Source: Thermoanaerobaculum sp.
GTDB lineage: Bacteria > Acidobacteriota > Thermoanaerobaculia > Multivoradales > UBA5704
Length of the DNA: 64,000 nucleotides
Direction of reading: 5' to 3'
Assembly (NCBI GenBank): GCA_021154885.1
Contig: JAJKHS010000077.1
Coordinates: 124,001-188,000, forward strand
Shown here: positions 31,896 to 49,358 of the stretch, piece by piece
Layout: each line of letters opens with the position of its first letter
Position numbering within the stretch: the stretch's first letter is position 1
Program-made: the position numbers and the translations under genes
Notes under the pieces: generated by a model
What the model was told of the DNA's origin: nothing
The model's input: the letters and a program-made list of their open reading frames with translations, nothing else
Database searches by the model: none

Positions 31896-32993
31896 GTGAG
31901 CCGGTCTGGTAGCGGAGCCCGACACGGGGCGCTCTCGGGGTGCCTCTGGTTCCTGCTCTGGACACTCGGCTTGCCGCTGGCGGCGCAGGGTCCGACACCG
32001 GGGCTCGCCCCGCAAACGATCCATCTCCGCGGCGGCGAGCGCCGGGACGTCTACATCAACCTCGGCGCCGACAACCGGCCGGACGTCGAGCTCCAGGCGC
32101 GGCTGAGCCGGGTTGGCGCATGGCCTGACATGAAACGCGTCCGCCTCGACATCGTCCGCAACGCCACGCAGGATCTCGGGACGGAAACCGTTCTCCACTA
32201 CGTCCCCGGGGGGCGCGTGCTCTGGTTGGAAGCTGCCGCCGACCGCTGCGCGCCCGCCGGGATCTACCACGCAACCGTCGACGTGTCGATCGTAGAACCT
32301 GGTCAGACCGCCGTCGTTAAGGCGCCTCCCATCTCTCTCAACATTGAGATCGCCGACAGTTGGGCCTGCGGAATAGGTCGCGCCCAACACATCCTCTTGC
32401 CGCTTCCCCTGGCGCTCGGTTTTTTCTTTCTTTTGACCTCCGTCACGCACAGCCGGCGTCTATCCATGGACCGTCTCGCCAAGCGGCTTCAGCACCTTAC
32501 GTGGAATGGTAGCGGCGAGCCAGGGATCACCAAGGACGAGGTCGACGTCCTCGGCAAGCTCGCCGAGAAATTGAGGTCCGTCGATCGGGTGAAGGTGTGG
32601 CTTGCCGCCAATCCCCTCCGTTTCGGCTGGCTGGCCTATGAAGAGACCGTCGAGATCATGTTGCGCGGCCCCAGCCTGGAGGGCCTCACCTTCACGGCGG
32701 TGGCGCCGCACTCCTGGGACGCGCCCGCCGAAGGTCATCTCTACGCCCGAGCTAAGACCGATGGAAGCGTTGACCTTCTTGGCGTTCCGGACCGCAACAA
32801 CAAGCTCTCCGGGCTTGATCTGTACGGACCGCCTCGCGACTTCGGATCCGGGAGGGAGGTCCGTAACCTGGACCTGGTCTACTCCTCTGCCGCAAAGCTA
32901 CCTGGCCGGCCGGCAGGGTGGAGGCTTCTCAAAGTGCAGATCCGAAAGAGCCCGGGAGCGGCTTCGGGGCTCGCGGCGGAGACGCGGCGATGA
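31896..32993 (+). CDS. Membrane protein sharing a cytosolic module with the VWA protein
   Basis: A 365-residue protein beginning with GTG eight bases after AGGAGGAGG. A signal peptide (GCLWFLLWTLGLPLAAQ) leads to a periplasmic beta domain (about 30-160), then one membrane helix (HILLPLPLALGFFFLLTSV, near 167-185) and a cytosolic C-terminus. That tail contains WLAANPLRFGWLAYEETVEI, closely paralleling WLRSNPLRFGLPGGRYHETV in the VWA protein two genes on; both are preceded by similar LAKRLQHLTW / LATKLKPLVW stretches. The shared module probably binds the same partner, perhaps the tubulin-like protein. No named family was recognised. First gene of the operon; it overlaps the next gene by four bases. 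Confidence 0.65.
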   Translation: MSRSGSGARHGALSGCLWFLLWTLGLPLAAQGPTPGLAPQTIHLRGGERRDVYINLGADNRPDVELQARLSRVGAWPDMKRVRLDIVRNATQDLGTETVLHYVPGGRVLWLEAAADRCAPAGIYHATVDVSIVEPGQTAVVKAPPISLNIEIADSWACGIGRAQHILLPLPLALGFFFLLTSVTHSRRLSMDRLAKRLQHLTWNGSGEPGITKDEVDVLGKLAEKLRSVDRVKVWLAANPLRFGWLAYEETVEIMLRGPSLEGLTFTAVAPHSWDAPAEGHLYARAKTDGSVDLLGVPDRNNKLSGLDLYGPPRDFGSGREVRNLDLVYSSAAKLPGRPAGWRLLKVQIRKSPGAASGLAAETRR

Positions 32994-33760
32994 GATTCCT
33001 GGAAGGAGTCCTGATGAACCTCCTCGCCAGTATTCTGCTCTGGCTGGGAGGGCTCTTGCTGGGCAAAACGTTCGACTTCGGGGTTAGTGATGTCAAGCCC
33101 GTTGAGATCCCTTGCTGTCAGATCATCAACACCTATGTCAACCAACCCCCCCAGTCGAGATTTGACCCTCCCGATCCGCCACCCAAGACGGACACTCAGG
33201 TCTTGAGTGCTCTCCAGTGTACGGATCACCAGGGTCACAAGGGCGCTTTCCGAGCCATGGTGTTCCTCGACAGCTACAACTGGGTGCGCGGCAGCACTGA
33301 GCTCGTCGAGTTCAACGGCCAGGTCATTCCCTACTTCCTCACGGTTCTCCGCCAGGAGCCAGTGCAGAAGATTCTCGCGGGAGCGGAGGAGATCGTTGCC
33401 GTGGGAACCGCCTCTTGTGAATCGCCGCTGGGACCCCTGGTCGAGAACCACCGGGCGGAGGAGCGCGCCGAACAGCTCGTCCGCTGGATCGAGGAATCCC
33501 GCGCTCAGTTGCCCAGCCGCCCCGGTCCGATGCGGAACGTGATTCCTCTCAACCTTGGAGGCTTCACCAAGGAGTGTCCGAAGTCCGAGGCGGCCGAGAC
33601 CTCTCGGCAAAGACGCCTCGTCCTGATCGCGGTCACCGACAGGCAGAAGGACCTCGACCTCGAGTCGTGCCTCCAGGAGAGGATGAAAGAAGATTCCTCC
33701 CTCAAGTTCCTGACCGACAACTATTCGAGATTCGATCTGGACGCCGGCTGGAAGATCTGA
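32990..33760 (+). CDS. Membrane-anchored OmpA-like protein
   Basis: A 256-residue protein with one N-terminal membrane helix (LMNLLASILLWLGGLLLGKT). The C-terminal ~150 residues have the order of an OmpA/MotB-like domain: EEIVAVGTASCESPLGPL as the conserved strand and turn, RAEERAEQLVRWIEESRAQL as the RA..L helix, and QRRLVLIAVTDRQKDLDLES as the final strand. OmpA-like domains often bind peptidoglycan, but here the match is distant. It starts in an ATGA overlap with the previous gene and ends directly against the VWA gene. OmpA-family proteins were among the partners reported for one tubulin-like family, which supports the assignment. Confidence 0.6.
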   Translation: MRFLEGVLMNLLASILLWLGGLLLGKTFDFGVSDVKPVEIPCCQIINTYVNQPPQSRFDPPDPPPKTDTQVLSALQCTDHQGHKGAFRAMVFLDSYNWVRGSTELVEFNGQVIPYFLTVLRQEPVQKILAGAEEIVAVGTASCESPLGPLVENHRAEERAEQLVRWIEESRAQLPSRPGPMRNVIPLNLGGFTKECPKSEAAETSRQRRLVLIAVTDRQKDLDLESCLQERMKEDSSLKFLTDNYSRFDLDAGWKI

Positions 33761-36562
33761 ATGAGAACCGGAACCTCAAGATCCGATCGCCAGCGACGCC
33801 CCCTCCTATGGAGGGCCATCGCCGTAGCATGTCTCTTGTCCACCCTTCTGGCGGTCTCGGCCGCCGCACAGTCGACGGCCCGTTCCGCCGAGGTGCGCTC
33901 GGCGCAGTACGTCCTCATCCTCGATGACTCTGGGAGCATGAAGACCACCGACCCGGACCGCCTCAGCCTCTTCGCCGCGCGTTCGCTGGTCAGCATGCTC
34001 GACGACCGCGACGAGGTGTCAGTGGTGCGAATGAACGGCCCTCGCGACGGGGCGCCGCCACCGCCGATCGAACCGCTGCGGAAGAACCGCGCTCAGATCG
34101 ACCAGCTCCTGAATCTCCAAGGGGGGATCGCCGGGTACAGCGCGAAATACACGCCGTGCCGGTCCTCGTTCATGGCGGTCCGGCGGCTGCTCGACGCGGC
34201 GTACCAGCCGGGAGTCTCTCAGGTCGTCATGCTGCTGACCGACGGGCAGTGCGAACCCGCAGAGGAAGAGTTATCGAGTGAGGATTTCCTGAGCGGCCTG
34301 CGCTCCCACGACCAGGGGGCCTTCCAGTTCTACCTGCTGCGCTTCCGCGGCATGCGGTACTCGCCGGCGCTGGTACGCTTGGCCGAGCGCACCGGGGGGA
34401 AAGCGATGGAGGCCGACCCGCGAGATCCGGCATCGATCCTCCAGACCTTCGCCACCGCACTGTCCCGCTCCCAGGGGTACGAAGCTTATCTCCTCTCGCC
34501 GCGCGAGGCCCACCTGGCGGCACACCGCGGCGCCGAACGGGTCCGCCTGCTCGCCATTGCCCCCGACGCCGGCCCCGGCCTCTCATTTTCCGTCCGTAGC
34601 CCGCGGGGTAGTGCCCCGCAGATGCTTGACACTCCCCGCGCCGGCACGCATCAGTACGGCGCCAACGGGAGGGTCTTCCGCTTCGCCGCGCTCGACTACC
34701 GGCCGGACGCCGAGCCGGTCGAGGTGGACGTGCCGGGTGGCGGAGAGCGCTGGAAAGTGGTGGCGCTGCCGGAGTATCGCCTCGCGGTGCGCCGGGCTGT
34801 TCAAGCGGGGAGCTGCGATCGTCCTGGAGCGGAGGTCCAGAGCGCCGAGGTGGGAGCGTCTGTCTGCATGATCGTCGAGCTGGTCAACGCGAGCGGCCAG
34901 GTAGTGGGCGGCGAGGTCACGGGAGGCGACCTGACCGCCCGGGTGCAGATCCGCCGCGCCGACCTGCCGGGCCAGCCGCCGGAGGATCTCGCCGCGAACC
35001 CACTCGCCGCCGGCCAAGCGCGGTTCGGCCTGCCGCGGAGCCACCTGGAGAAGGGGGACTACGAGCTCCAGCCGCTGGTCTCCCTGAGCCTCTCCTCCGG
35101 CGAAGCGATCAAGCTGCGCGGCACACCGGCGTCGCTCGAGGTCTCCTCGGTAGAGATCCATCCCCAACCCGCTCGTCTCGCCTTCGGCAGTTTGCGCCCC
35201 GGCGATCTCGCGCAGAGCCCATTCCGCCTCGCGGGCAACTTCCCGAAGGCGTCCGGGCACCTCGAGCTGGGCGACCGCCCCGATCTGCCGGCCTGCGTGA
35301 CCGCCGAGCTGAGCGGCGTCCTGGAGGGCAAGCCCCAGCCGATCACGCCGGGTCAGGGGTACAACCTCGTGCTGCGCGTCTCTCCCTACTGTGGCCCGCA
35401 GCCGATCGACCGCCCGGTCAACACGGTCCTCCGCCTGGTGCTCGCGGGCGAAGGCGGCCGCCAGCTTCCCGTTATCGAGCTGCCGTTGACCTTCCGGCTG
35501 GACTACCGCATCGACGCCCCCAAGGAGCTGACCGTCAAGGTCCGCGGCGGGCAGGTGGAAGACGTGCCGGTAACGGTGGGCGGCAACTTCCAGAAGCAGG
35601 TGTCGCTGCGCGCCGTGGTGGCCGGCCCGAAAGAGGCCGAGGCGTGGCCGGAGGGCCGCGGCGACCTGGTCCTCGGGTTCGCCGGCGAGGGTTCTGCGAA
35701 GGTGCTGCGCGACAAAGAGGGCGATCCGCTCCTCAATCACGACTTCTCCGCCGGTCCGGGGGCGGCTCCGCTACGGCTGCGCGCCCTCCCCGGCCGCTGC
35801 TGCGCCGCGGGCTCCTTCGCGACCCGCCTGGGGCTCGCCCCCGCCGGCAATCAGCCTCTGCCGCCAGGAGCCCGGCCGCCGGAGCCGGTCGTCGTGCCGG
35901 TGCGCGTCGAGGTCGAGCCGGCCGGCTTCTGGGCCTGCTATGGACCGCGCATCCTCGCGGCGCTGGCCGCCCTGCTGTTGCTCCTGCTCGTCCTGTACTG
36001 CGTGAACATGTTTCGTCACAGCATCTTCCTCAAGCCCGATGCGCTGGCGACGAAGCTCAAGCCCCTGGTGTGGACCGAATACGGCGACGCGGTGGAGCTC
36101 GACAAATCGAAGGGCGAGGTGACGCGGCTGGTGCGCCAGGCCCTGCCGCTGCACCGCCGGGCCAGCGCCTGGCTGCGCTCCAACCCTTTGCGCTTCGGGC
36201 TGCCCGGAGGGCGTTACCACGAGACGGTGGAGATGCTGTTGCAGCCGAGCCGCGACGTGGCCCGCTCTCAGGTCCTCCTGGTGGCCGAAGGCGACGTGCA
36301 GGCGCGGGCGGAGAGCGAGCCGGAGAATTTCCGTCGCCGGCTCTTCGCGATCGCTGCCGGGAAGGTCCTGTTCCTGGCCGTGCCGGATGCGCAGGGCCGC
36401 ATCGGCACCCTGGTCTGGCAGAACGGCTTCCTGCCTTCGGAGTTCGAGGGGGAGCCCGCCCGGCTGCGCGCGGTCAAGCTGCACAGGGCAAAGCTGCTGC
36501 GTTCCCTCGAAGCTTGGGAGACTCATGAGGAAGGCAAAGCCGCCGGCTGGCAGATCGGTTAG
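33761..36562 (+). CDS. Membrane-anchored VWA-domain protein
   Basis: A 933-residue protein. A signal peptide (VACLLSTLLAVSAAAQ) is followed by a VWA domain (about 45-230) with an intact metal-ion-dependent adhesion site, VLILDDSGSM (Asp55, Ser57, Ser59). Residues about 230-720 are several beta-rich domains, probably Ig-like. A membrane helix (RILAALAALLLLLLVLYCVN, near 729-748) leads to a cytosolic tail of about 180 residues that repeats the WLRSNPLRFG...ETVEML module of the first operon gene. The layout places the VWA domain outside and the shared module inside. VWA proteins of this kind are predicted partners of the tubulin-like GTPase. It begins directly after the OmpA-like stop. Confidence 0.85.
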   Translation: MRTGTSRSDRQRRPLLWRAIAVACLLSTLLAVSAAAQSTARSAEVRSAQYVLILDDSGSMKTTDPDRLSLFAARSLVSMLDDRDEVSVVRMNGPRDGAPPPPIEPLRKNRAQIDQLLNLQGGIAGYSAKYTPCRSSFMAVRRLLDAAYQPGVSQVVMLLTDGQCEPAEEELSSEDFLSGLRSHDQGAFQFYLLRFRGMRYSPALVRLAERTGGKAMEADPRDPASILQTFATALSRSQGYEAYLLSPREAHLAAHRGAERVRLLAIAPDAGPGLSFSVRSPRGSAPQMLDTPRAGTHQYGANGRVFRFAALDYRPDAEPVEVDVPGGGERWKVVALPEYRLAVRRAVQAGSCDRPGAEVQSAEVGASVCMIVELVNASGQVVGGEVTGGDLTARVQIRRADLPGQPPEDLAANPLAAGQARFGLPRSHLEKGDYELQPLVSLSLSSGEAIKLRGTPASLEVSSVEIHPQPARLAFGSLRPGDLAQSPFRLAGNFPKASGHLELGDRPDLPACVTAELSGVLEGKPQPITPGQGYNLVLRVSPYCGPQPIDRPVNTVLRLVLAGEGGRQLPVIELPLTFRLDYRIDAPKELTVKVRGGQVEDVPVTVGGNFQKQVSLRAVVAGPKEAEAWPEGRGDLVLGFAGEGSAKVLRDKEGDPLLNHDFSAGPGAAPLRLRALPGRCCAAGSFATRLGLAPAGNQPLPPGARPPEPVVVPVRVEVEPAGFWACYGPRILAALAALLLLLLVLYCVNMFRHSIFLKPDALATKLKPLVWTEYGDAVELDKSKGEVTRLVRQALPLHRRASAWLRSNPLRFGLPGGRYHETVEMLLQPSRDVARSQVLLVAEGDVQARAESEPENFRRRLFAIAAGKVLFLAVPDAQGRIGTLVWQNGFLPSEFEGEPARLRAVKLHRAKLLRSLEAWETHEEGKAAGWQIG

Positions 36563-36611
36563 CCGCGGCTGAGGATCTTGCAACCACGGATTCCGCCGAA
36601 GGAGGCGAGGA

Positions 36612-39600
36612 ATGCCGAGACATCAGAAGGTGGTCATCGAGGAGATGTTGACCAAGCCGAGCGCGGTCTGCCCGACGCTCTTCGTCGGTCTGGGTGGCTG
36701 CGGCTGCCGCCTGGTGAGCCGGGTCGCGCGCCACCTGCAGCGGCGCCCCGACTACGAGGAGCGCTACAAGGCGCTCGTCAAGTTCGCCCTGGTCGACACC
36801 AACGTCAACGAGCTGGAAGGCTTCCGGGAGATGGCGGACAGCACGTTCCTCATCAGCGACTTCGAGAAGGAGGAGTACGCCGATCTCGCCTCCGGGAAGC
36901 TCTTCCTGGAAGCCGACCCCTATTTCACGCAGTGGGTGCCGCAGAACTATCGGTTCCGCGCTGGCGACACGGCCGGCGCCGGGCAGATCCGCATCGAGTC
37001 GCGGCTCGGCGTCTTCTATCAGATGAAGCACAAGGACTTCGTGCCGAAGTTCCGGAGGCTCCTGGAGGATCTCAAGTCGCACGAGTTGGGGCACCGCCGC
37101 CTGGACAGTCAGGAGATCCGCATCGTCATCTGCTACTCGGTGGCCGGCGGCACCGGCTCGGGCTGCCATCTGCCGATCGCCTACCTGCTGCGCGACCTGG
37201 CCAGCGAGCTCGGTAAGCCGCGTCTGATCGGCGTCGCCGTGCAGCCGGCGGTCTTCGAGGACAAAACTGGCATCAACCGCGACGGCACGTTCGCCAACGC
37301 CTATGCCGCGCTCAAGGAGACCGAGTACCTGATGAAGCTGGGCGCTCCCGATTCGCGCTTCTTCCCCGAGGAGGGGCTCGCCTTTCATTACGACCCGTCG
37401 GACGTCTCCAAACGGATTGTGCGCCAGCCGCCATTCGAGTTCGTCTACATCGTGGACAAGCCGCAATCGTTCACCGTGCCCGATCCAGTCGAGGCCGCAG
37501 CGGATGGCCTCTATCTTCAGTTCTTCTCCCCGCTCTACTCGTATCAGGCCTCCGACTATGACAACTTCACGCAGCACCAGCGCTTCCTGGTGCCCCACGA
37601 CTTCGAGGCCAAGGGCATTATCGGCTTCACCACATTCTATGGCTCCTATGGAGCTGCGGTGCTCCTCGTGCCTGTCGACGGCCTGGTCGACTTCTGCTCG
37701 CAGTCGGCGGCGCTGTCGCTGATGCGGGCGAGTTTCCTGCGCTCGATCCCTGGCGATGCGATCTATGCGTCGCTGCGCAACGTGCCAGAGCCGTTCTACG
37801 AGGTGGCGCTCGGCAACGAGAAGAATGAAAAGCCGGTCCAGGTAGCGGATTTCCCGAAGAAGGAGAAGGACCAGCGCGAGAGGCTGATCGATCGCTTGTA
37901 CATGAAGCGGGTCCGCCTGCTGGCCGCCTGTGAGTTCGCGGACAATGAGCTGAAGCGCTTCTTCACCCTGTTCCGCCACGGCCACCGGGCGGGCGAGATC
38001 CCGCGATCGGATGGCACCTGGGAGCTCAAGCCGGAGAGGGTCAAGGAGGACCAGGAGCAGCTCGCGCGCAACGGCATGCGCCTTTCGATCGGCGCCATCG
38101 TCCTCCCGACGATCACGAGCGACAATCCCCAGGAGCTTCCCGGCCTGCTGCAGCAAGCCCGCAAGGCGATGGAGCTTCACGCCGAGGAGGACCAGCCGAC
38201 GGCGGCCGGCATTAACCGTGTCTACGACGCGCGGACCCGCGCCTCGGTGTGGCTGGACGAGTTCAAGAGCGTCGGGATGAGAATCCTCAAGAACGGCTAC
38301 AAGAGCGGGACTCTCAGCCATCCCGGGATGGACGCCCTGGTGGAGCTGTCGTTCCTCAACGACGAAGCCGGGGAGGTGGACCTGGCGGCCAAACGCTATG
38401 CCGTGCTGTCCATTCTCGAACGGGTACGCTGGGACGTCACGCCCCCGGAGCGCACCGCTGACTTCGACCTGGGCGAGCACAAGGATACCGACAAGCTCAA
38501 TCCCAAAGAGGTCCCGGCGCTCCTCGAGTCGCTGCAGAGCCAGGCCATCGAGCGGGCGATGCAGATCGTCAAACAGCAGTTCATCGAGTCGCTGGGGGAC
38601 CTGCGCACCAACCTCGACAAGTTCGCCATCACGCAGCGCGAGCTCGAAAAGGGCTTCGACCAGTTGGAGGCCGAGCAACTGAACCGCCTGCGCAAGCTGC
38701 GCGAGGACGGCGGCAAGAGCTCGTCGGCCAACCAGTACGTGCTCGACGCCGAGGCGCTGCAGATCGAGGACGGCCGGCGCATGTGGGACTTTTACTTCGA
38801 GGACAAGATCGCCGAGCTGCCTGATCTCTCGCTCAGCAACCGCGAGATCCAGGTGCTGCTGGGCGACACGGTCACCGCCATGAGCGTGCGCCGCGGCGGC
38901 GCCACCAGCGCCGACCTGGACAAGCTCTTCACCGCACTGCGTGAGCATGTCGAGAAGTTCCTCAGTGCCTGGATCGGCGGCGATCCCCACTCGCCGGACC
39001 GCGAGCGGCGCGACGGTCTGACGCTGTCCGACGCGTTGGAGCTCGAAGTGGTCTACCGCGCCCTCTACCGCAGCAACAGCCCGCAGGTGGAGGCTGGCGG
39101 CGACAAGGAGATCCGCGAGCTGATCGCCACCTATCGCAACCCGACAAATGAGGAGAAGCTTGACCTCAAAGACGAAAGGCACAGCGACTACCTGCGCGAC
39201 AAGATCAAGCGGCTGGTCAAGGAGAAGGCGTCGCTCCTCTGCGTCTACGAGGAAGGACGCGACCAGCACGGCGGCGTGCGGCCGGACAACGTCTTCGTCG
39301 CCGCCATCGACGAGAACTTCAAGAACAGCACGATCGAAGAGGCGATCCGCGGCGCCGATCCCAACCTCACCTGGGTGACGACGGGATGGACCAACCCCAA
39401 GGAGATCATCTTCTACCGCGCGGTCCTCAACGTCCCGCTCTACGTCTTCGGCCGGATGAAGGAGATGAAGGCGGAGTACGAGCGCTTCAAGGCGCTCGCC
39501 AAGCGGCCCAAGGTGCTGCACATCGATCATAACTGGGAGGACATGCTCCCGGATCTCGATCCCGACAGCGCGCAGGAGAACCACCGCCAGCAGCTCCTGC

Positions 39601-40424
39601 GGAACCACGTGATCAACTTCGCGGCGCTGATGACCACACGGCGTCCCGACGGCGGACCGGCCTTCGTCGTCCGCCGCGGTGGCAAGTACTGCCTCTCGGA
39701 TCCGGACTGGGACGGCCTGAGCGACGACGGGGAGTTTGGTGACGACGGCCTGACCCGCCTGGGGGAAACCCTGGCCGACTCGATCCAGCGGCTGCCCGAA
39801 GTGCTGGAGTCGGAAAAGGTCACCTATCTCTCCTACCAGCAGATGCTGCGCGCCGTGCGCGAGGGGCTGGCGCCGGAGGTGCTCGCTGCGGTCGTCGAGC
39901 TGCCGTTCCGCTGGCGCAGTAACCACGACGAATTGCGCAACAAGTACGGTCCCAACCGGACGCCGGTGCAGCAGGAGAAGCTCAAGGACTACGCCGACGC
40001 CTATCAGCGCCTGCGCGAGGCGTTGGAGAAGCTCTACGATCGGCTGAGCAACGTCAGCGTCGAGCAGCGGACGCTCGGCGAGGATCTGGGCGCCAACGCG
40101 GCCAACCTGACGGCCGAGGAGGCGGAGGAGAACCTCGCCCAGAGCATCAAGATCCTTGAGACGTTCTGCGAGGTGTGGAAGGCGCTGGAGAACCCGGATC
40201 AACCGGGAGCCGTGGCGAAGAGCTTCCAGCGGCTGTTTCGTCCTTTGCCGGAGGACAAGCTCAATCGCCTGCTGGAAAAGCTGCGTAGCGGTCCGACACG
40301 GCCGGCCGGAGGAGTGCGGCGAGGGGCGCCGCCGGCGGGAGGGAGCGTCGCGGTTGGCTCCGGGATCGCCGCGGTCGTGCCGGGGAACGGACAGACTCCG
40401 GGCGACAGCCCGGCGGGGAACTGA
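36612..40424 (+). CDS. Large tubulin/FtsZ-like GTPase
   Basis: A 1270-residue protein with an N-terminal tubulin-superfamily domain (about 20-430). The first loop reads LFVGLGGCGCRLVSRVAR (residues 23-40), a DTN follows in KFALVDTNVNE (near 57-67), and the signature GTP-binding loop is YSVAGGTGSGCHLP with GGTGSG at 179-184. A catalytic-loop-like acidic segment follows (AVFEDKTGINRDGTFANAY). The remaining ~840 residues are helical and unassigned, making it several times longer than FtsZ. No membrane helix is seen. It belongs to the 'tubulin-like' families predicted to act in membrane remodelling with VWA and OmpA-like partners. GTPase activity is inferred from motifs only. Confidence 0.85.
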   Translation: MPRHQKVVIEEMLTKPSAVCPTLFVGLGGCGCRLVSRVARHLQRRPDYEERYKALVKFALVDTNVNELEGFREMADSTFLISDFEKEEYADLASGKLFLEADPYFTQWVPQNYRFRAGDTAGAGQIRIESRLGVFYQMKHKDFVPKFRRLLEDLKSHELGHRRLDSQEIRIVICYSVAGGTGSGCHLPIAYLLRDLASELGKPRLIGVAVQPAVFEDKTGINRDGTFANAYAALKETEYLMKLGAPDSRFFPEEGLAFHYDPSDVSKRIVRQPPFEFVYIVDKPQSFTVPDPVEAAADGLYLQFFSPLYSYQASDYDNFTQHQRFLVPHDFEAKGIIGFTTFYGSYGAAVLLVPVDGLVDFCSQSAALSLMRASFLRSIPGDAIYASLRNVPEPFYEVALGNEKNEKPVQVADFPKKEKDQRERLIDRLYMKRVRLLAACEFADNELKRFFTLFRHGHRAGEIPRSDGTWELKPERVKEDQEQLARNGMRLSIGAIVLPTITSDNPQELPGLLQQARKAMELHAEEDQPTAAGINRVYDARTRASVWLDEFKSVGMRILKNGYKSGTLSHPGMDALVELSFLNDEAGEVDLAAKRYAVLSILERVRWDVTPPERTADFDLGEHKDTDKLNPKEVPALLESLQSQAIERAMQIVKQQFIESLGDLRTNLDKFAITQRELEKGFDQLEAEQLNRLRKLREDGGKSSSANQYVLDAEALQIEDGRRMWDFYFEDKIAELPDLSLSNREIQVLLGDTVTAMSVRRGGATSADLDKLFTALREHVEKFLSAWIGGDPHSPDRERRDGLTLSDALELEVVYRALYRSNSPQVEAGGDKEIRELIATYRNPTNEEKLDLKDERHSDYLRDKIKRLVKEKASLLCVYEEGRDQHGGVRPDNVFVAAIDENFKNSTIEEAIRGADPNLTWVTTGWTNPKEIIFYRAVLNVPLYVFGRMKEMKAEYERFKALAKRPKVLHIDHNWEDMLPDLDPDSAQENHRQQLLRNHVINFAALMTTRRPDGGPAFVVRRGGKYCLSDPDWDGLSDDGEFGDDGLTRLGETLADSIQRLPEVLESEKVTYLSYQQMLRAVREGLAPEVLAAVVELPFRWRSNHDELRNKYGPNRTPVQQEKLKDYADAYQRLREALEKLYDRLSNVSVEQRTLGEDLGANAANLTAEEAEENLAQSIKILETFCEVWKALENPDQPGAVAKSFQRLFRPLPEDKLNRLLEKLRSGPTRPAGGVRRGAPPAGGSVAVGSGIAAVVPGNGQTPGDSPAGN

Positions 40425-40426: not shown

Positions 40427-43400
40427 TTGTCCCGAGTGTTCCCGGCCCCGGTGATCGTTGTCGGCGTCGGACGCTTCGGCTTGGCGACGCTGGAGCGCCT
40501 CGGCGACGACTGGTCCGGTCTCCGGCTCTCCGGGGCGGACGTCTCGATCGGCAACCTGCGCCTCCTGGCGGTGCGCTCGGCTGGGGCGGCGAACGGCTGG
40601 CGCCGTTTCGAAGAGGACGCCGTCCGCATCGCCGGTCATCTGGGGGACAGCGACCTGCCGTCCCTGGCACTCAACCTCGCGATCGTCCGTTCTCTCGGCC
40701 TCGTCCGCTATCGCGACGGTTGCTATCAGGTCGCCCTGCCGCGCGACGCGGGCGTCGTAGAGGTGGAGATCGAGGCCGCGCCGGGAGCGGACGGCGGCGA
40801 GGAGACCCCGCCGGAGAAGCAGTCGCGGCGCCTGCGCTACTTCGAGTGGCTGCGGCTCGACCCGGATCCGATCGTCGCGGCGGAGCGGCTGCATCACCTT
40901 GCCCAACGCCTGCAGGAGGTCGATCTCTTCATCACGCCGCTGCTCAACCGGGTACGGCAGGGGCACAGCCCGCATACGCTGCTAGCCTGCATCGACCGCT
41001 GCCGCTCTCTCCTCGCAGGGCGGGATCCTGCACCCTGGGACTGGGGGAACCCGGCGAACATCGACCCGCCGGATGGGGAGAGTGTGCCGGTCTCGACTCT
41101 CGTCGCTCCGCAGGAGAAGGAGGAGATGCGCCAGGCTGCGCGTTTCCTCGAAAAGGTGATGGAGCCTCCGCTCGCCGGCTGGAACGAGTGGCTGAGCGGC
41201 GACGAGGAAGCGCCACCAGTGATCAAGAAGTTGGAACCGTTCGTACGGTGCGCCGGCGACCTGTCGTCGCCGCTGGATCCCGCCGAGCTCCTCGGCCGCG
41301 AATGGGAGGTCACTGGCTGGGCGAGCCAGCAGGGACCCTCAGCCGACGATATCTTCATCCCTCTGACTCCCCACCCGTTCCAGTTGGGCCTCTTCGACCT
41401 GGACAATCGGGAGGGCCTGCCGGAGACGACCGTCGAGCTCCTGAGAGGCCGGCTCGGGGATTTTGGCCGGTTCCTGCACGGCGGCCTCGTCCGCCTCTGG
41501 GTGGACCTCCAGCGAGAGAGGGTTGGAGACGTCAACAGCAACATCCTGGAAGAGGCGCGGCAGCGTGACGAGCTGACCGACGCGTTGCGGCAGTCCCTCG
41601 AGGTGCTCGGCGAGATTGTCGTGCACCCGCTCAAGGACGCGCTCCACGAGGTGCCACGCCGGGCCTCCAACTCGGCGGCGGAGACGGATCTGCCCGGCGA
41701 GCCCAGCCGTTTCCTGCGCGGGCTGGAGATCGACGATCCCCGGGAAGAGTCTCCCCGCCAGTGGCTCGAGCGGCGGCTGGCGCACCTTGGTTTCGCAGCG
41801 ACCGCGGAGCCCGGGGAGGAAGGCGCGCCGGCAGGCTCCGCCGAGACCAGCTCTCCGCCGCGGCACGCTCCGCTGTTCGCGGACGTCTGCATCCCGGCCG
41901 GACACGATGGTATGGAAGACAGGACCAAGGAGCCCTTCTCGCCCTTGCGCGAGGCGCTCAACCGGCAGGTCCGCGAGATGTACGGCTTCCGCTTCCTCAC
42001 CCGCTACCGCCAGCGGCCGACCCGGCAGCCGCCACGGCTCACGGTGTTCGTGATCGGCGATATGAGCGAAGCGTTCACCCGCGAAGCCATGCGGCACGTG
42101 CTGCGCGAGATGCATGCTGAGCTTCTGCGCGCCTTCACTCCCATCTTCGAGTCCTACCGGGTGGGGTTCGATCGCTGCCTGTGCGTCACCCCGATCCTCT
42201 GGATGCCCCATCCTGCCGATCCTTTCCAAGGGGAGGACCTCGCGGTCAGCCGCTGCGAGGAGGCGGCGATCATCGACGCCGTCCACGGCATCCGCCGCTG
42301 GGTGGAGTGCGTCCTTCCCGCCGGTCGGCGCAGCATCTCCCAGATCTTCGTCAACAGCCGGGTCACGGATACATCCACCTTGAGCTTGGCCGATGCCCTG
42401 CGCCAGACGCGCGACTTCCTCTCCTTCCAGATCCGCAACGACCTGAGCCAGAACCCGTGGCTTCGCCAGACGTCCATGAGCGCCGGCGGCACCGACCTCT
42501 TTTCCTCGTTCTCCTGCTACGAGATCGACTTTCCGGCCCTGCGCAGCCGCGAATACCTGGCCAACCGCCTGGCGCGTGAGTGCCTGGCCGAGCTCAAGCA
42601 GGGCGAGCATGTGCGCATCGAGCCGCCGGAACCGCTCGCTCCGCCGGCGCTGGACAAGCTCACCGATCAGGCCCGCCAAGTGCTCGGGGGGGTTACCCGG
42701 CAGGCCGGGGACAGCCTCGCGCAGCGGGTCGAGAACCGCTGCCAACTCGAGCCCGGCACTCCCTCACGCGAGATCCTGAAGGCGTTCGACGAGCGCTTCG
42801 AGACCGAGCTGCGGCGCGACGTGTGGGCGACCTGGAGCGAGCTGACAGGCCGCCTGGGACGGGTCGACGCGCTGGTGGACGAGCTGCGTCTCGCAACCTC
42901 GCGCCTGGTGGGCAAAGCGGTCGAGCGGGTGCAGTCCTACAGCGACCATCTGGTCGCGGACTACGCCGGAGCCGGCGGTCTCAAGGCGGCGCAGGCCGCC
43001 TTCCATCAACTGCGGATAGCTACCCAGGAGACCTTCCAGGAGCAGGAGAAGCTGCGCCGCAATCGAGAGGCCCTGTGCGGCCGCCACACGATCCCCGTAC
43101 TGGAACAGCTCAGCCGCGCCCGCCGCGCCGTCCTGACGGCGGCGGAGCGCAAGCCGGATCTCTCTCCCATCCACTTGGGCCTCGCCGTCTGGGCCCTGCT
43201 CAGCCTCGTCCTCGGTGCTCCCGTGGCCCAGGCCATCTCCTACTTCTTCGAGCTCCACCTGCGGCCCAACCTCCTGGAGTGGCTCCTCGGCCCGGGTGGC
43301 GGGATCACCGGCGGCCTGCTCCTGTGGGGCGCGGCGTGGGCTCTGCTGCGCTGGTTCGTGCGCCGGCGCTTCCGCTCCCTGACCCACGCCATCCATGCGA

Positions 43401-44410
43401 TGGCAGAGGAGGTGCGCGCTTTCTTCTGGGGCACCGGCGCTCACCCGGAGAGCGAAGGTCGGCCTTCGGTCCGCTCGTTCCTCGAGAGCCGGCTCGAGCT
43501 GACCGGCGCCGTGGCCACCCGCGGCTTTGCCGCCACCGTCTTCGAGCGCGCTCTTGCCGACTCACAGCTCGCCGACCGCTTGGCCCGCAGCCTCGACGTG
43601 CAGGCCGCGCTCCTGGGACGCAAGAGCGAAGAGCTGGGCGTGCGCGCCACGATGGGGCACGGCAGCGAAAGACGCGAGGATCTGCGCAGTCTGTTTGAGG
43701 GCCGCAGCCGGACTCCCGCCGACCGCCTGATCGATCCCGAGATGCTGCACGACTACTTCCAACGCCGCATCGGCGACGATCTGATCCGTGAAGTCCCTGG
43801 TCTGATCAAGAGCGGGGGAGGGTTCTTCGCTTGGCGCGAGCAGGCCTGCCTGACCGACAGCGAGCGTATCCTCGAATACTGCCGGGCTCACTTCGACGAC
43901 CTGGTCCGCGAGCCGATCTCGAACCAGCACTTTTTCGCCGGCAAGGTCGGGCCGCGCCTCGTGCAGTTCGTCTCCCGTGTCTACCCCAATCTTGGCTTCG
44001 GCGCCGGCTTCAAGGGCTATGAGGGACTGGACCCCGACAACGTCCGCCTGCTCGCCGACGCGACGCTGGTCATCCACAGCGGATTGGAGGACCTCTTCCG
44101 GGAGACCCGGCAAGCACTGCGCAAGGACTGGCCTATGACCGAGACCCTGGAGCTGCACACCGTCGACGTACGGCCCAATGCCGCTTACATGCTGTCGCTC
44201 GTGCAGGGGATCCGGGTCACCAGCCTGCGCAACCTTCGTCGTTTCGAGTCATTCCACAACCGTCCCAACATGCCCGACGACCGTATGTTCCCCCTGTCTC
44301 AGGAGCCTCAGGCCCAGCGCTCGCCGGTCAATCCGCTGACCGGCTATGGGACCATCGGAAGCGACCTCGCCGCCACTGTCTTGGCTCCACCTGACTCCTC
44401 CCGATCATGA
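40427..44410 (+). CDS. Large membrane protein resembling a degenerate tubulin-like paralogue
   Basis: A 1327-residue protein. Its start VIVVGVGRFGLATLERL (residues 9-25) then LRLLAVRSAG parallels VGLGGCGCRLVSRV then VKFALVDTN in the preceding tubulin-like protein, and RCLCVTPILWMPHPADPFQG with RCEEAAIIDAVHGIRRWVEC parallels a later section. The GGTGSG loop is missing, so nucleotide binding may be lost. Two membrane helices lie near residues 917-940 and 957-975 (LAVWALLSLVLGAPVAQAIS; GGLLLWGAAWALLRWF), and long helical stretches fill the rest. Start is uncertain (TTG two bases after the previous stop, or a GTG nine bases later). It could be a membrane-tethering partner of the GTPase. No named family was recognised; the paralogy is inference. 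Confidence 0.6.
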   Translation: MSRVFPAPVIVVGVGRFGLATLERLGDDWSGLRLSGADVSIGNLRLLAVRSAGAANGWRRFEEDAVRIAGHLGDSDLPSLALNLAIVRSLGLVRYRDGCYQVALPRDAGVVEVEIEAAPGADGGEETPPEKQSRRLRYFEWLRLDPDPIVAAERLHHLAQRLQEVDLFITPLLNRVRQGHSPHTLLACIDRCRSLLAGRDPAPWDWGNPANIDPPDGESVPVSTLVAPQEKEEMRQAARFLEKVMEPPLAGWNEWLSGDEEAPPVIKKLEPFVRCAGDLSSPLDPAELLGREWEVTGWASQQGPSADDIFIPLTPHPFQLGLFDLDNREGLPETTVELLRGRLGDFGRFLHGGLVRLWVDLQRERVGDVNSNILEEARQRDELTDALRQSLEVLGEIVVHPLKDALHEVPRRASNSAAETDLPGEPSRFLRGLEIDDPREESPRQWLERRLAHLGFAATAEPGEEGAPAGSAETSSPPRHAPLFADVCIPAGHDGMEDRTKEPFSPLREALNRQVREMYGFRFLTRYRQRPTRQPPRLTVFVIGDMSEAFTREAMRHVLREMHAELLRAFTPIFESYRVGFDRCLCVTPILWMPHPADPFQGEDLAVSRCEEAAIIDAVHGIRRWVECVLPAGRRSISQIFVNSRVTDTSTLSLADALRQTRDFLSFQIRNDLSQNPWLRQTSMSAGGTDLFSSFSCYEIDFPALRSREYLANRLARECLAELKQGEHVRIEPPEPLAPPALDKLTDQARQVLGGVTRQAGDSLAQRVENRCQLEPGTPSREILKAFDERFETELRRDVWATWSELTGRLGRVDALVDELRLATSRLVGKAVERVQSYSDHLVADYAGAGGLKAAQAAFHQLRIATQETFQEQEKLRRNREALCGRHTIPVLEQLSRARRAVLTAAERKPDLSPIHLGLAVWALLSLVLGAPVAQAISYFFELHLRPNLLEWLLGPGGGITGGLLLWGAAWALLRWFVRRRFRSLTHAIHAMAEEVRAFFWGTGAHPESEGRPSVRSFLESRLELTGAVATRGFAATVFERALADSQLADRLARSLDVQAALLGRKSEELGVRATMGHGSERREDLRSLFEGRSRTPADRLIDPEMLHDYFQRRIGDDLIREVPGLIKSGGGFFAWREQACLTDSERILEYCRAHFDDLVREPISNQHFFAGKVGPRLVQFVSRVYPNLGFGAGFKGYEGLDPDNVRLLADATLVIHSGLEDLFRETRQALRKDWPMTETLELHTVDVRPNAAYMLSLVQGIRVTSLRNLRRFESFHNRPNMPDDRMFPLSQEPQAQRSPVNPLTGYGTIGSDLAATVLAPPDSSRS

Positions 44411-47400
44411 CTAGCAACGACCTGCTGGATCTGTTGCGCTCCCTCGTCACCTTGCCGGCCGCTGCCTTCTGGCCGGCGGTGGCCTGGACGCTCGATCGGC
44501 TGCAGGGGATCGGGAGCTTCTGGGGAGGGTTGCTCGCCCTCGCCCTGGTTGCCGCGTCTGCGGGTCTCGCGGTCCTCTGGCAGCGGCGCCTGGTGCGGCT
44601 GATCGACGCCACACCAGCGGCTCCTCTCGGCTTCTTCCGTTTCCTGAAGCTCGAGCTCCTCTACTCCCCGGTGGGAGTGCCTCTCTGGCTGTTCCGCCTG
44701 CCGTGGATGTTGATCCGCGCCCTGGCGGCAGGGGTGCGGTCGGTGACGGGCAAGCTCCGCCGCAAGCGGTCGGACCCGGCCGCTGCTCTGACAGCCGGCG
44801 CGACCGCAGAGGCGCCAGCCGCCAAAGTGAGCACGCCGCCGTCCCCGGCGCCCCCCCTGCTCGTGGCGAGCCTGGGGCCCGGATTCCTGCTCGCCGGTCT
44901 CGGCACGGCAGCGCTCTATGGGGCGGCGCTTCTCGCCGAGCCCCTCCTGCGCCGGAGGCTCGATCTGTCGCCCGGCCTCTCCGCCTGGCAGTACCTCTTC
45001 CTGGGGCGACGGCCGGAGCTTGCCTGGTACCTGCCGCTGAGCCGCTTCCCATTCCTGGGCGCCCTCCTCGTGCTGCTTCTGTGGCTGGCGATCTGGTCGC
45101 TGGTGGGAATCGCCGTCCGGCTCTTCCTGCAGGCGCACCTGGGGCGCAACCTGGCGGCCGATCGCGAAGACGAAGAGGTGCTCCCCTTCTGGCGGCGGTG
45201 GAGCGGCGTGCCGTTCCTGGCCAGCGTGGCGCCCTCGTTTCGTGAGTGGGCCGCGTGGCTGGCGGCCGTGGCCTTTCCGCTCCTGGTCTGGGCCTGGCTG
45301 TCGCTGGGAGGAGATCCGTACCGCCTGCCGCCGTCGCAGTTTTCCGTCGCCCTCCTCCTCTGGACCTCCTGGTCCCTCCATCTCGTATTGCGCGGCGAGG
45401 AGCGCCTGACGCAGGCGCCGGCCGCGGAGCTTCCGGCTGCAGCCGGCCAGGGAGCGGGATGGCCGGACGTCCTGGCTTATCTCGCCAACCGCTGGGGCGT
45501 CGCGCCGCCGCCGCCGCGGGAGACCCGTCCGGTGGAGCCGCGGGAGAGGTCGGAAGCCGACCCGCGCACGGCCGGTGTCCTTTCACCCCTGGTCATCGAG
45601 CTCCTCCCTGGGCCGCGCCCGCAGCACCTGACTCCCATGCAACGCGCCGTGCTGACCCGGCTCGCTCTCCAGGGCTACGTCCACGTCGATCCGCCGATCG
45701 CCCTGCAGGAGCTCACCCTGGGGGAGACCCTGGAAGTGTCTGCGGACCGTAGCGGACAGCGCAGCCGCAACCTGATCGTCCTGGCGCCGGAGGGGGCGGG
45801 CAAGTCGACCCTCGCCCTCCTCGCGGCGGCGAACCATGCCCTCGTGCACACCCGCGGCAGCCTGATCGTGGTGCGTAGCGAGTCCGCCGCCGAAAAACTG
45901 GCCGAACGCTTTCGCCACGCGATCGAGCCGTCGACGCTGCGCTGGAACGTCCGCGTGCGGCGGCCGGGCAGCGACCTGATGACCGATCTCGCCCAGGGGA
46001 TCATCCCGGATGTCGTCTTGTGCTGCCTGCACGATCTGGTGACCACGGTGCTCGACCGGGCCGATACCTTCGCGCCGCTCCTCAGCAACCTCGGTCTCGT
46101 CATCGTCGACGACGTGGAATCCTTCGCCGGACCGGTCGAGGTGCACGCCCAACTCGCCTTCCGGCGTCTGACGCTGCGGCTGCGCGAGCTGATCGGTGTG
46201 CACACGCTGGGAGAGAAGAGCGCGCCGCAGGTCCTGATGCTGGGCGTCGAGAGCATGCACCGCATGCCCGAGTGGGTGCGCAGCCTCTGCGGCGTCGACG
46301 CGGTGGTGCGCAACTTCTCGCGCTCGGGGCGCGAGACCGCCGAGCGCGAAAGGGCCGAGCTGACGGCGAGCGGGACCGCCCTGATCAAGCCGGAACCGCA
46401 GTTGGAGCCAGGCGGCGATCCAGGCGCGGGAGTCCCGGGCTCGGCTGGGCTGGGCCCGGGACAGCTCTCCTATCACCTGCAGGACTTTCAGCATGCGGGT
46501 GAGCCCCTGACTCTGGCCGACCTGGTCGACGCCTGCGAGCAACTCGCCGTCCCCTGGCACTACCGGCTGTGTGGCGACGGCCGGCGCGATCTCGGGCGCG
46601 GGCCGCTCCTGCTGCGGGAAGAGCCGGTGAGCTACCGCGAGTCGCCGGAAGAAGCCTGCGTCGTCCTGCTCGAAGGCAACTGGAGCGAAGTACACCGCGA
46701 GCGCGAGCGGTTGCGCCGGGCCGGTGCGCGTTTCCGGCGCGCGGCGGGGCAGCCTCCGGCCGGAGAGCCGCTCGCCACCGAGCCGATCGCCGTCATCTCG
46801 GTCGTGGAGCCGGGTCTCGAAGAGGTCTTCGACGGCCCCGTGGGCTCGGCCGACCTGGCCGCCAGGCTGGCCTCCCTGCCATGGCCCTTCGTCCGCCCGC
46901 CCACTGGCCTCACCGTCGAGCCCCACCTGTCGGCGGACCTGGTGCAGCACTGGCTCGAAGTTGAGGAGGTCGTCGGCGTCTTCGGCGGCATGTGCGTGCC
47001 GCGTCTGCGCCAGCTGGCGGACCAGCGCCTCCTGCTCTGCGAGCGGCGGACCGACGTCGACGAGCGGTCCAACGAATACGTCGAGAACGTCTTCGTGCGC
47101 GCCCTGTCCGCCGCCGTGCGCCCGGAGGAAGATGCCGCGGGAGGCGGTGCCGATCTGCTCCCTCCCAAAGTGGCGCAGGTCGAGCTCGCCGTCCCGCGCA
47201 CGGTGGCCGTGCGCGACCGGACCCGCCTAGCGAAATTGGCAATGACGGCCGCTGAAACCGCTCACGTGCACTACTATCCAGGGCGCATCTTCCAGGATGC
47301 GCGTGGCATCTTCATCGCGCTGGCGCGCGCGGGTGACGAGGACGCCTCCCCCGGCGCCCTGCCGGCGGGAGACGTGCTCGTCGAGCCCCTGTTGACCGAC

Positions 47401-48216
47401 GAGGTCTCGTCACCGCGGCGGCTGTTCCTCCTCACTCCATTGGCGAGCACGGAGAGCGCCCCGGAGATGGTCCAGGCTGCGGGAGGGAGCTTCCCGTCTC
47501 CCGACCGGGTGCTCCTCGGTCGCTATCCGTTCGACGTCGCCCTCGAGCCGATCGCGGTGCGGATGCGGCCCATCGCCACCTACCGGCTCGACGTCCTGCG
47601 CCGGGATGTGCGCCAGCGGACCCTGCTCGAGTCATCGGTGCGGGCGCGCTACGAGAAGCTCGCCTTCGAGACCGTCGCCTTAGCTCTCGTCCCCAATCCC
47701 GACGCTGGTGTTCCCGGGGTGGCAGAAGGGGGATATTCCGGGCCGGACGAGGCGGTCACGGGGCCCCTCCTCACCTTCGAGGCCGCCCGGCTGCTGGCGG
47801 CCGTGCTGCGCGCTCTCCTCCCCGTGATGTACCGCGGCGCCCGGGAGGGACTCCAGGTGGCGCTGCGCCTCGCCGCGCCGGAGACGGCGCCCCCCGAGAC
47901 CGCGCTCCTGCCCAGCGAAGCCCTCTACCTGTTCGATGCCGATCCCGGGGGGAACGGCATGGCCAGGGCGATCCTCCGCGACGGCCTCGAGCTCCTGCTC
48001 CGCCTCTGTCGCCTGGCGCTCGAACGCGCTCCCTCCCTCGACCTCTTGCGTACCCTTTTCGACGAGTGGGGCGACGAGGCCGAGGTGCTCGCCGAGAGCC
48101 GCGGTGAAGCCGCGTCCGCAGCGGACTGGCAGCGGGCGCAAGGCGTTGCTCTGGCTTGGCTCAACAGCCGTCTCCGTTCCGAGGACGACCTCTCCCGTCG
48201 GGTGCGCCGGTCATGA
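44407..48216 (+). CDS. Polytopic membrane protein with an SF2 MrfA/Hrq1-like ATPase domain
   Basis: A 1269-residue protein. Residues 1-335 hold six or so membrane helices (GGLLALALVAASAGLAVLWQ, FLGALLVLLLWLAIWSLVGI and others). A P-loop NTPase follows: LTPMQRAVL resembles a Q-motif, VLAPEGAGKSTLALL is Walker A (about residues 459-470) and GLVIVDDVESFAGPVEVHAQ is motif II (about 562-580), with the 'gap then RRL' pattern of MrfA/Hrq1 helicases. The C-terminal domain has VHYYPGRIFQDARGIFIAL and LFDADPGGNGMARAIL, close to the MrfA C-terminal (DUF1998) signatures. Helicase activity is not assured: the second motor domain is divergent. A membrane-anchored helicase-like ATPase is unusual. ATGA overlaps link it to both neighbours. 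Confidence 0.72.
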   Translation: MTSNDLLDLLRSLVTLPAAAFWPAVAWTLDRLQGIGSFWGGLLALALVAASAGLAVLWQRRLVRLIDATPAAPLGFFRFLKLELLYSPVGVPLWLFRLPWMLIRALAAGVRSVTGKLRRKRSDPAAALTAGATAEAPAAKVSTPPSPAPPLLVASLGPGFLLAGLGTAALYGAALLAEPLLRRRLDLSPGLSAWQYLFLGRRPELAWYLPLSRFPFLGALLVLLLWLAIWSLVGIAVRLFLQAHLGRNLAADREDEEVLPFWRRWSGVPFLASVAPSFREWAAWLAAVAFPLLVWAWLSLGGDPYRLPPSQFSVALLLWTSWSLHLVLRGEERLTQAPAAELPAAAGQGAGWPDVLAYLANRWGVAPPPPRETRPVEPRERSEADPRTAGVLSPLVIELLPGPRPQHLTPMQRAVLTRLALQGYVHVDPPIALQELTLGETLEVSADRSGQRSRNLIVLAPEGAGKSTLALLAAANHALVHTRGSLIVVRSESAAEKLAERFRHAIEPSTLRWNVRVRRPGSDLMTDLAQGIIPDVVLCCLHDLVTTVLDRADTFAPLLSNLGLVIVDDVESFAGPVEVHAQLAFRRLTLRLRELIGVHTLGEKSAPQVLMLGVESMHRMPEWVRSLCGVDAVVRNFSRSGRETAERERAELTASGTALIKPEPQLEPGGDPGAGVPGSAGLGPGQLSYHLQDFQHAGEPLTLADLVDACEQLAVPWHYRLCGDGRRDLGRGPLLLREEPVSYRESPEEACVVLLEGNWSEVHRERERLRRAGARFRRAAGQPPAGEPLATEPIAVISVVEPGLEEVFDGPVGSADLAARLASLPWPFVRPPTGLTVEPHLSADLVQHWLEVEEVVGVFGGMCVPRLRQLADQRLLLCERRTDVDERSNEYVENVFVRALSAAVRPEEDAAGGGADLLPPKVAQVELAVPRTVAVRDRTRLAKLAMTAAETAHVHYYPGRIFQDARGIFIALARAGDEDASPGALPAGDVLVEPLLTDEVSSPRRLFLLTPLASTESAPEMVQAAGGSFPSPDRVLLGRYPFDVALEPIAVRMRPIATYRLDVLRRDVRQRTLLESSVRARYEKLAFETVALALVPNPDAGVPGVAEGGYSGPDEAVTGPLLTFEAARLLAAVLRALLPVMYRGAREGLQVALRLAAPETAPPETALLPSEALYLFDADPGGNGMARAILRDGLELLLRLCRLALERAPSLDLLRTLFDEWGDEAEVLAESRGEAASAADWQRAQGVALAWLNSRLRSEDDLSRRVRRS

Positions 48217-49358
48217 ACCGCCAAGTCATCTTCTGTCTCCTTCTCCTGATTTCTCTCGGCTTTGTGGGGGCGCTCGCCGGCGGCTGCCAGTCGAGGGCTC
48301 GCGAGCCGCGCCAACTCGCTTTCCCGACCTTTCAGGCCGCGGCGCCATTTCCGGAGTTCCAGAGCGCCGCGGCGATTCCAGAGAGGGCTGAAGGGTCTGC
48401 TCCCAGCCAGTTCACACGCGCTTTGAACGAACAGCCGTCGGCCGCGACGCCCGCTGCGCCGGAAAGTCAGAGCGTGCCCCTCGGCAGCTCGATGACCGCT
48501 CAGATCCCCCCCAGGGAGAAGGACTGGACCTGGTCGCTCGCGGACGGGGCCACCCTCATCGCGCACGCGCCCAACGGCGGCCGTCCGGGGGCTCTGGTTT
48601 ATGTCGAGCCGTTCTCTGCCGACATCCACAACCACCCTTCGACAGAGCATCTCCGTTTCCAGATGACCGTCGATCCCGAGCTCGCCGAGAATTACCTGCG
48701 GCTCACCGCCGCCGACGTGGTCCTGGCCGGCCGGGCCGCCGCCATGCCTCCACTGTCGCGCAGCGAAGCCGCGCGTTGGGCGCAACTGCTCAAGACCCGC
48801 ACCCAGGGGCGCGGTCTCGGCTTTCGGCCGACCCGCAGTTCGTTTACCGGTTGGCGCTGGGTGGGCCGGAACGGGCACGAGGTGACCGTCCGTTGCAGCC
48901 GCTACCTCGGTGTGTGGGCGCAGCCGCGGCCCTGGCCCGCTCCGGTCGCCGCCGCCCTGGCGCGGCTACGGGGTGAGCCCGAAAAGCCGGTCTCCCCACC
49001 CGGGGCGCCAGCGCCCCCCTTTGCGCCAGCCGCGGTACCCGCCGTCGCGGGGGTCTCCTCCTACCTGATTCTGGGCAGCGCCACCGATCGGGATGAGGAG
49101 ACAGGAGTGCATTTTGCCATCCTCTGCGTCCGGGAGCCGCGCTGCCTCGTCTACAAGGAGCTCACGCAGTTCCTCGAATCGATCCAGATTGCCGAGGGCC
49201 CGCAGTTGGACCGTCTGCGCTCGGCGCCACCCGTCCCGTTCCAAAAGTTGGTTCAGGAAACGGGCCTGGAAATCTTATCTGGCTCCGAGTTGCCGGACTT
49301 GTCGAAACGCAATGGAAAACCTGGGACAGGCACGGCGCCCGAGCAGGTGCCTCGTTGA
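48213..49358 (+). CDS. Lipoprotein, last gene of the tubulin-like operon
   Basis: A 381-residue protein with a signal peptide ending in GALAGGCQSRA, an imperfect but plausible lipobox with Cys25 as the lipidated residue. A low-complexity stretch rich in A, P and E covers about residues 30-95. The rest is mixed, with WTWSLADGATLIAHAPNGGR and SSYLILGSATDRDEETGVHF suggesting beta-rich domains. No family is recognised. It starts in the ATGA overlap with the ATPase gene, so it is certainly coupled to the operon. As a lipoprotein it could be the outer-face component that connects the complex to the envelope. Confidence 0.65.
   Translation: MNRQVIFCLLLLISLGFVGALAGGCQSRAREPRQLAFPTFQAAAPFPEFQSAAAIPERAEGSAPSQFTRALNEQPSAATPAAPESQSVPLGSSMTAQIPPREKDWTWSLADGATLIAHAPNGGRPGALVYVEPFSADIHNHPSTEHLRFQMTVDPELAENYLRLTAADVVLAGRAAAMPPLSRSEAARWAQLLKTRTQGRGLGFRPTRSSFTGWRWVGRNGHEVTVRCSRYLGVWAQPRPWPAPVAAALARLRGEPEKPVSPPGAPAPPFAPAAVPAVAGVSSYLILGSATDRDEETGVHFAILCVREPRCLVYKELTQFLESIQIAEGPQLDRLRSAPPVPFQKLVQETGLEILSGSELPDLSKRNGKPGTGTAPEQVPR

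Follow-up and report, generated by a model that had tools for sequence, protein, structure and literature searches.

The window analysed here, the whole 64,000-nucleotide stretch of a Thermoanaerobaculum sp. contig (JAJKHS010000077.1, positions 124,001 to 188,000), carries an operon of seven genes in which a tubulin-superfamily GTPase of the FtsZl1/Tubulin_2 family (gene 4, hereafter TUB) is followed by a probable degenerate tubulin (gene 5, P3) and by a predicted membrane-anchored relative of the DUF1998 helicase MrfA/YprA (gene 6, P4). The order of a VWA protein gene, TUB, P3 and P4, in some loci extended by a lipoprotein gene, recurs in other genomes, suggesting more than a chance association. 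We tentatively propose that the operon encodes an undescribed envelope machine consisting of a tubulin heteropair (an active GTPase and a GTPase-dead membrane partner), a membrane-tethered YprA-type DNA-binding protein and an outward-facing VWA sensor, and that second degenerate tubulins are common but unrecognised partners of FtsZl1. The FtsZl1 tubulins have been known since 2010, with no function demonstrated in the papers found; the stable gene core provides them with a list of partners, including a probable pseudo-tubulin as a membrane anchor and a YprA-type protein that would link the tubulin to nucleic acids.

A tubulin-superfamily GTPase and its downstream neighbour

All seven open reading frames (ORFs) lie on the plus strand, spaced as described in an earlier, sequence-only reading of this DNA: the largest gap is 49 bases, and three junctions are ATGA overlaps (32990-32993, 44407-44410 and 48213-48216), the remaining ones having gaps of 0 (33760/33761), 49 (36562/36612) and 2 bases (40424/40427). 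For gene 1, the GTG at 31896 is a possible start and is preceded by AGGAGGAGG. Most of the products are predicted to be membrane-bound or exported, and the previously assigned labels of membrane protein, superfamily 2 (SF2) ATPase and lipoprotein hold for the window products. That reading had overlooked the degenerate tubulin (gene 5), the MrfA/YprA identity of gene 6, the paralogy of gene 1 and the rival conflict role discussed below. The genes are as follows:

31896..32993, plus strand: gene 1, membrane protein with a beta-rich part, one transmembrane segment and a cytoplasmic tail, lacking a VWA domain
32990..33760, plus strand: gene 2, membrane-anchored and probably periplasmic protein with an OmpA-like motif only
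33761..36562, plus strand: gene 3 (VWA protein), signal peptide, VWA domain with DDSGS (metal-ion-dependent adhesion site, MIDAS), beta-rich region, transmembrane segment 731-749 and C-terminal tail
36612..40424, plus strand: gene 4 (TUB), FtsZl1/Tubulin_2 GTPase with intact loops T1-T4, about 900 further residues and no transmembrane segment
40427..44410, plus strand: gene 5 (P3), probable GTPase-dead tubulin paralogue with a T1-like loop, a helical region, a transmembrane hairpin at about 915-985 and a C-terminal domain
44407..48216, plus strand: gene 6 (P4), N-terminal polytopic membrane part and a MrfA/YprA-like helicase fold (DEAD, MZB/DUF1998-like)
48213..49358, plus strand: gene 7, lipoprotein with an N-terminal hydrophobic segment and a GGC lipobox-like cysteine

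TUB matches Pfam Tubulin_2 (PF13809) with an E-value of 1.1e-45 (156.9 bits; cut-off 27), which bears out its previous labelling as a tubulin-superfamily GTPase and assigns it, by sequence, to the FtsZl1/Tubulin_2 family. The loops T1 (GLGGCG), T2 (VDTN), T3 (AGAGQIR) and T4 (AGGTGSG) are conserved across the aligned relatives. The T4 loop, of which GGTGSG occupies residues 179-184 of the 1270-residue product, as noticed earlier, corresponds to the GTP loop GGGTG(S/T)G with A in place of the first G, as in most family members here. TUB is the sole operon product in which all nucleoside triphosphate-binding loops seem intact. Given that a conventional FtsZ is also encoded in the host genome, TUB is not the division FtsZ. 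Two more Tubulin_2 genes of the same genome are located on another contig, beside trypsin-VMAP-C and MoxR-like AAA genes.

The product of gene 5 has no Pfam match, yet it is probably a GTPase-dead paralogue of TUB carrying a membrane hairpin, as suggested by profile evidence that is moderate and consistent. In profile-profile comparisons (hhalign), P3 aligns with TUB at P values of 3e-5 to 5e-5; the T1-like loop GxGxFG of P3 falls on T1 of TUB, its strand PPRLTVYVVAEMSEPF is placed over the T4 strand, and FATFSCFEIDFP over the S8 region, where an S8-like FxSF...FP motif is present. The GGxxGxG of the T4 loop is absent in every P3 member covering that region, so that P3 is at most a pseudo-tubulin with no active GTPase, and the T2 and T3 signatures were not seen among the P3 members in the motif table.

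Control comparisons in both directions point the same way. Among 407 neighbourhood proteins scored against the TUB profile, the top ranks outside the TUBs themselves went to the products of genes directly downstream of TUB in genomes G102 (2e-15), G346 (2e-11) and G044 (7e-6), followed by the P3 members, from 8e-4, with the best unrelated protein at 3.2e-3. In the reverse control, the TUBs ranked at the top against the P3 head (Mann-Whitney, 1e-18). Furthermore, second tubulins in the P3 position are clearer in G102 (Pfam Tubulin_2, 2.8e-13) and G346, both with transmembrane segments.

The AlphaFold2 model of P3 has a mean predicted local distance difference test score (pLDDT) of 78 and a predicted TM-score (pTM) of 0.56. 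Its N-terminal part comprises a strand (6-11), a helix (12-32) and a strand (41-48), then an insertion, after which follow helix 502-526, strand 535-542, helix 546-567, strand 582-590, helix 602-626 and strand 637-641. In our own reading of this model, the order of the elements would fit a tubulin core with a long insertion.

Several observations weigh against the tubulin assignment. The single-sequence scores of P3 are weak, reaching 8e-4 at best versus 3.2e-3 for an unrelated protein; the TUBs are among the longest proteins of the control set, which may aid their rank against the P3 head; Pfam Tubulin_2 matches P3 members only marginally (2 of 22, best 0.07); and Foldseek comparison of the P3 model with PDB and BFVD returned no tubulin match, the best hits being weak helical-bundle ones. 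The weak scores and the Foldseek outcome would fit an unrelated Rossmann-like membrane protein, similar to TUB by chance or through a general shared fold, and GxGxxG loops are frequent among Rossmann folds. However, such a protein would hardly match T1, the T4 strand and S8 in order in several tests, nor would it account for the two-way control results or for the clearer second tubulins at the same position in G102 and G346, and we regard this alternative as unlikely. Two further candidates were rejected: the pore-toxin matches found by Foldseek (E 6e-3 and worse, TM-score at most 0.26) were attributed to the resemblance of long helices, and the NCBIfam ZorA1 match (0.23) is weak and lies within the helical stretch, so that homology was not accepted.

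Two members of the window's phylum have, directly 3' of a Tubulin_2 gene, a second tubulin-like gene with transmembrane segments (loci L087, 3553-6798, and L082, 6486-9677). In G346, the second tubulin-like gene is followed by a HerA-type ATPase gene. A gene of 659 amino acids (aa) that follows a 930-aa gene has two transmembrane segments and a marginal tubulin match.

A predicted membrane-anchored relative of MrfA/YprA

The family profile of P4 matches MrfA/YprA in PDB with an E-value of 8.9e-12, and the structural model (AlphaFold2, mean pLDDT 76) agrees: the four best Foldseek matches are MrfA structures (E 2.5e-20 to 3e-14, TM-score about 0.6 by target), headed by 6znp (2.5e-20, TM-score 0.60 by target). 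The profile also matches, at 1.3e-3, PDB entry 9tu7, a 2108-residue DEAD/DEAH helicase chain which we take to be DruE of Druantia. Pfam DEAD is found in 17 of the 21 family members and the MrfA zinc-binding domain (MZB), weakly, in 8 of 21, whereas none of the NCBIfam and PADLOC models fits gene 6. Profile and model thus identify gene 6 as a predicted membrane-anchored relative of MrfA/YprA, the likeness extending over most of the MrfA fold and including the region from motif II to the '..G......RRL' stretch and an MZB-like C-terminus.

Unlike MrfA/YprA, P4 is membrane-anchored and has lost the motif II glutamate. The window protein keeps the Walker A sequence APEGAGKST but has DDVE, not DE, in motif II. 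Across the family, 17 of 21 members have DD in motif II and a single one has DE, the catalytic glutamate being replaced in 20 of 21; motif III is unrecognisable, and the Walker A lysine is retained in 12 members out of 20, including that of the window, and is an arginine in the other 8, all of the short type described below. Given that an intact Walker A together with a DE(x)H motif II is not maintained across the family, P4 is a relative of these enzymes and probably not an active helicase, and we infer that it has ceased to function as one. It may bind ATP or nucleic acids; ATP binding may persist in view of the Walker A lysine retained in more than half of the members.

The cysteines of the four-cysteine zinc site of MZB/DUF1998 are present solely in the P4 member of G023, which suggests that the P4 family probably descended from ordinary DUF1998 helicases. 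At this locus (L055), three consecutive VWA-type genes precede TUB, which is accompanied by an 846-aa P3-like gene and the P4 relative with zinc-site cysteines, and a FadL-type porin gene lies upstream. The G023 locus possibly represents an ancestral form of the operon.

Conservation of the operon and its envelope products

In all 23 loci where the contig extends far enough, P3 comes next after TUB. Two types of locus can be distinguished, the short type (ten genomes) being characterised by a P3 of about 820-900 aa in which some 450 residues are missing from the segment that links the T1-like loop to the T4 strand. P3 is followed by P4 in all 12 long-type loci and in seven of nine short-type loci; in the two exceptions, other genes stand between P3 and P4 (G570) or P4 was not detected in the available stretch (G643). 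The complete order from the VWA protein to the lipoprotein was found in G009, G440 and G429, and in G646 with a weak lipoprotein match, whereas G566 carries VWA-TUB-P3-P4, and G435, G445 and G455 carry TUB-P3-P4-lipoprotein. In the closer, long type, identity to the window proteins is about 36-60%, with G646 as the one outlier. An apparent P3-P4 fusion in G792 was discarded, the two lying in different overlapping frames. Repeated co-occurrence of the last genes with TUB, which the sequence-only reading had proposed as a test for a single system, is thus observed across genomes; neither of the outcomes that it had named as contrary, the lack of a tubulin fold in the 1270-residue protein or of conserved linkage, was encountered.

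The distribution of the operon is patchy. Of 40 relatives, 2 carry gene 5, and of 297 genomes in the phylum likewise 2; as both counts include the window's own genome, G009 is the one other carrier. Most linked loci belong to the phylum represented by G326, a named Myxococcales metagenome-assembled genome, where gene 5 occurs in 25 of 379 genomes, about half of them with strong full-length matches and the rest with the distant short form. A single branch of the TUB tree (94/93) sets the P3-associated TUBs apart from the remaining ones, a separation that none of 500 label shuffles equalled, and the P3-associated sequences are united with those of G023 and G203 at 100/99. The TUBs of the window and G009 nest among those of the other phylum, a position suggestive of transfer between phyla. 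The pairwise distances of the VWA protein, TUB, P3 and P4 across genomes correlate at 0.94-0.98, which fits joint inheritance, although shared species history alone could suffice.

The VWA label of gene 3 is clear in a homologue (Pfam 1.2e-5), whereas the window copy itself falls below the Pfam cut-off (0.019). A VWA gene lies directly 5' of TUB in G009, G440, G429, G646, G566 and several short-type loci, the same position that gene 3 has in the window. Gene 1 has no Pfam match; it matches residues ~590-931 of the VWA protein in both hidden Markov model and BLAST comparisons, with a transmembrane segment at ~223-241 (numbered on the 422-aa ORF), and is a paralogue of the C-terminal half of that protein. 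The earlier description of gene 2 as OmpA-like remains unproven: neither of two homologues has a Pfam match to OmpA, and the hhalign score against OmpA domains (P 0.014, versus 0.048 for the best control) reflects a weak resemblance limited to a short motif. In G009, the gene 2 homologue is convergent and located just beyond the lipoprotein gene. A lipoprotein gene lies 3' of P4 in most long-type loci whose sequence extends far enough, homologues of gene 7 standing directly after P4 in G440, G435, G455, G445, G429 and G009 and, weakly, in G646.

Possible roles and comparison with known systems

Collectively, these data make it somewhat probable that the genes encode one inner-membrane machine built on the tubulin-superfamily pair, an estimate that concerns its architecture and not its role; the VWA gene does not adjoin TUB in G435, G445, G455, G493 and G624, which weakens the case for a single unit. 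In such a machine, P3 would serve TUB as its receptor at the membrane and as its partner in assembly, by analogy with alpha and beta tubulin, which form pairs, and with FtsA and SepF, which anchor FtsZ. By binding and hydrolysing GTP, TUB would switch assembly at the inner face of the membrane, and the VWA protein, with its MIDAS outside and its tail inside, could sense or bind something at the envelope and thereby control the switch. P4 may constitute a membrane-bound arm for nucleic acid binding or scaffolding. We envisage an envelope-sensing machine acting at the inner membrane, its target probably being DNA that reaches this membrane or is attached to it. Should gene 5 be a tubulin, it would provide a GTPase-dead, membrane-anchored tubulin partner, and should gene 6 bind membrane-located DNA, the operon would join the prokaryotic cytoskeleton to YprA-based genome defence.

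An anti-phage role in conflict, in which the outward VWA protein senses an attack, TUB assembles and the YprA-like P4 engages incoming DNA at the membrane, is plausible, albeit short of probable. Relatives of YprA have been described as DNA-repair or defence proteins, the MrfA/YprA (DUF1998) family being represented in DISARM, Dpd, Druantia and ARMADA (PMC12458937), and operons combining tubulin with an extracellular VWA protein are predicted conflict systems (Kaur et al., 2020; PMC7159879). As those of Firmicutes carry two tubulin genes, a tandem tubulin pair has a precedent. The patchy spread and the nesting of the window and G009 copies within another phylum, suggestive of transfer, would also be in line with such a role. 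However, the operon contains no nuclease or effector gene, the catalytic residues of P4 are degraded, and PADLOC gave no system match for the seven window products, only marginal P-loop ones (E at least 0.037). Moreover, there is no recurrent defence gene around the operon loci, P3 is unmatched in plasmids or phages and TUB in viral contigs, all of which tells against a defence function.

The alternative that TUB filaments act with the VWA and envelope proteins in shaping the membrane or forming vesicles, or that they serve in adhesion, with P4 as a structural scaffold only, is a possibility that we hold tentatively. It is favoured by the membership of TUB in the FtsZl1 family, the preponderance of exported or membrane-bound products, the decayed helicase motifs of P4 and a published prediction of membrane remodelling for FtsZl1 from genome context (Makarova and Koonin, 2010; PMC2875224). 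This prediction, from which the sequence-only reading had taken its designation of the operon as membrane-remodelling, is not a result and is unsupported by experiments in the papers found; furthermore, remodelling leaves the relationship of P4 to a DNA helicase unexplained and the OmpA partner is unproven. Between conflict and remodelling, the YprA link slightly favours the former, though without recurring defence neighbours. Any other function, such as DNA positioning, seems unlikely.

The window operon resembles the described FtsZl1 operons (PMC2875224) in having a VWA partner, membrane proteins and a tubulin-like GTPase whose C-terminal extension is long, and in the presence of a conventional FtsZ in the same genome. 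The previously suggested fit to this core stands for the FtsZl1-VWA pair but is unproven for an OmpA-family partner, which is itself known from several genomes only (PMC2875224). By contrast, the main text of that paper includes neither a helicase-type partner (the word "helicase" never occurs) nor a degenerate second tubulin. With the GAP1-N2 conflict systems (PMC7159879), the operon shares the tubulin-domain gene(s) and an extracellular VWA protein with a transmembrane segment, but here neither a TRAFAC GTPase nor HSP70 nor an FNIII-repeat protein was observed (Pfam detected no P-loop GTPase family among the seven products), and a YprA-like membrane protein is added. Unlike MrfA/YprA systems, it has no nuclease or methylase partner, and unlike VMAP/MoxR ternary conflict systems, which the two other Tubulin_2 genes of the host genome resemble, it lacks VMAP, MoxR and trypsin; the window TUB lies elsewhere in the tree. 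A 2025 survey of ~52,000 YprA-like proteins mentions neither tubulin nor VWA (PMC12458937), DUF1998 and VWA were found together only in the CoCoNuT papers, where VWA is part of a separate TerY-P triad, and no description of the present gene combination was found among the open-licence papers that were searched.

The neighbours that recur over unrelated loci comprise protein kinases and a small gene resembling a transposase. A gene of ~320 aa (518 in G566) near the lipoprotein/P4 end in G435, G440, G445, G455 and G566 resembles a repetitive extragenic palindrome (REP)-associated, Y1-type transposase. Compared with none in 14 control genomes, the host genome has 21 matches above cut-off to acidobact_VWFA (TIGR03436), which points to an Acidobacteriota host. 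Upstream of the operon, two small overlapping genes on the minus strand (28588-29239 of the window) encode a candidate PIN-domain toxin and ribbon-helix-helix antitoxin.

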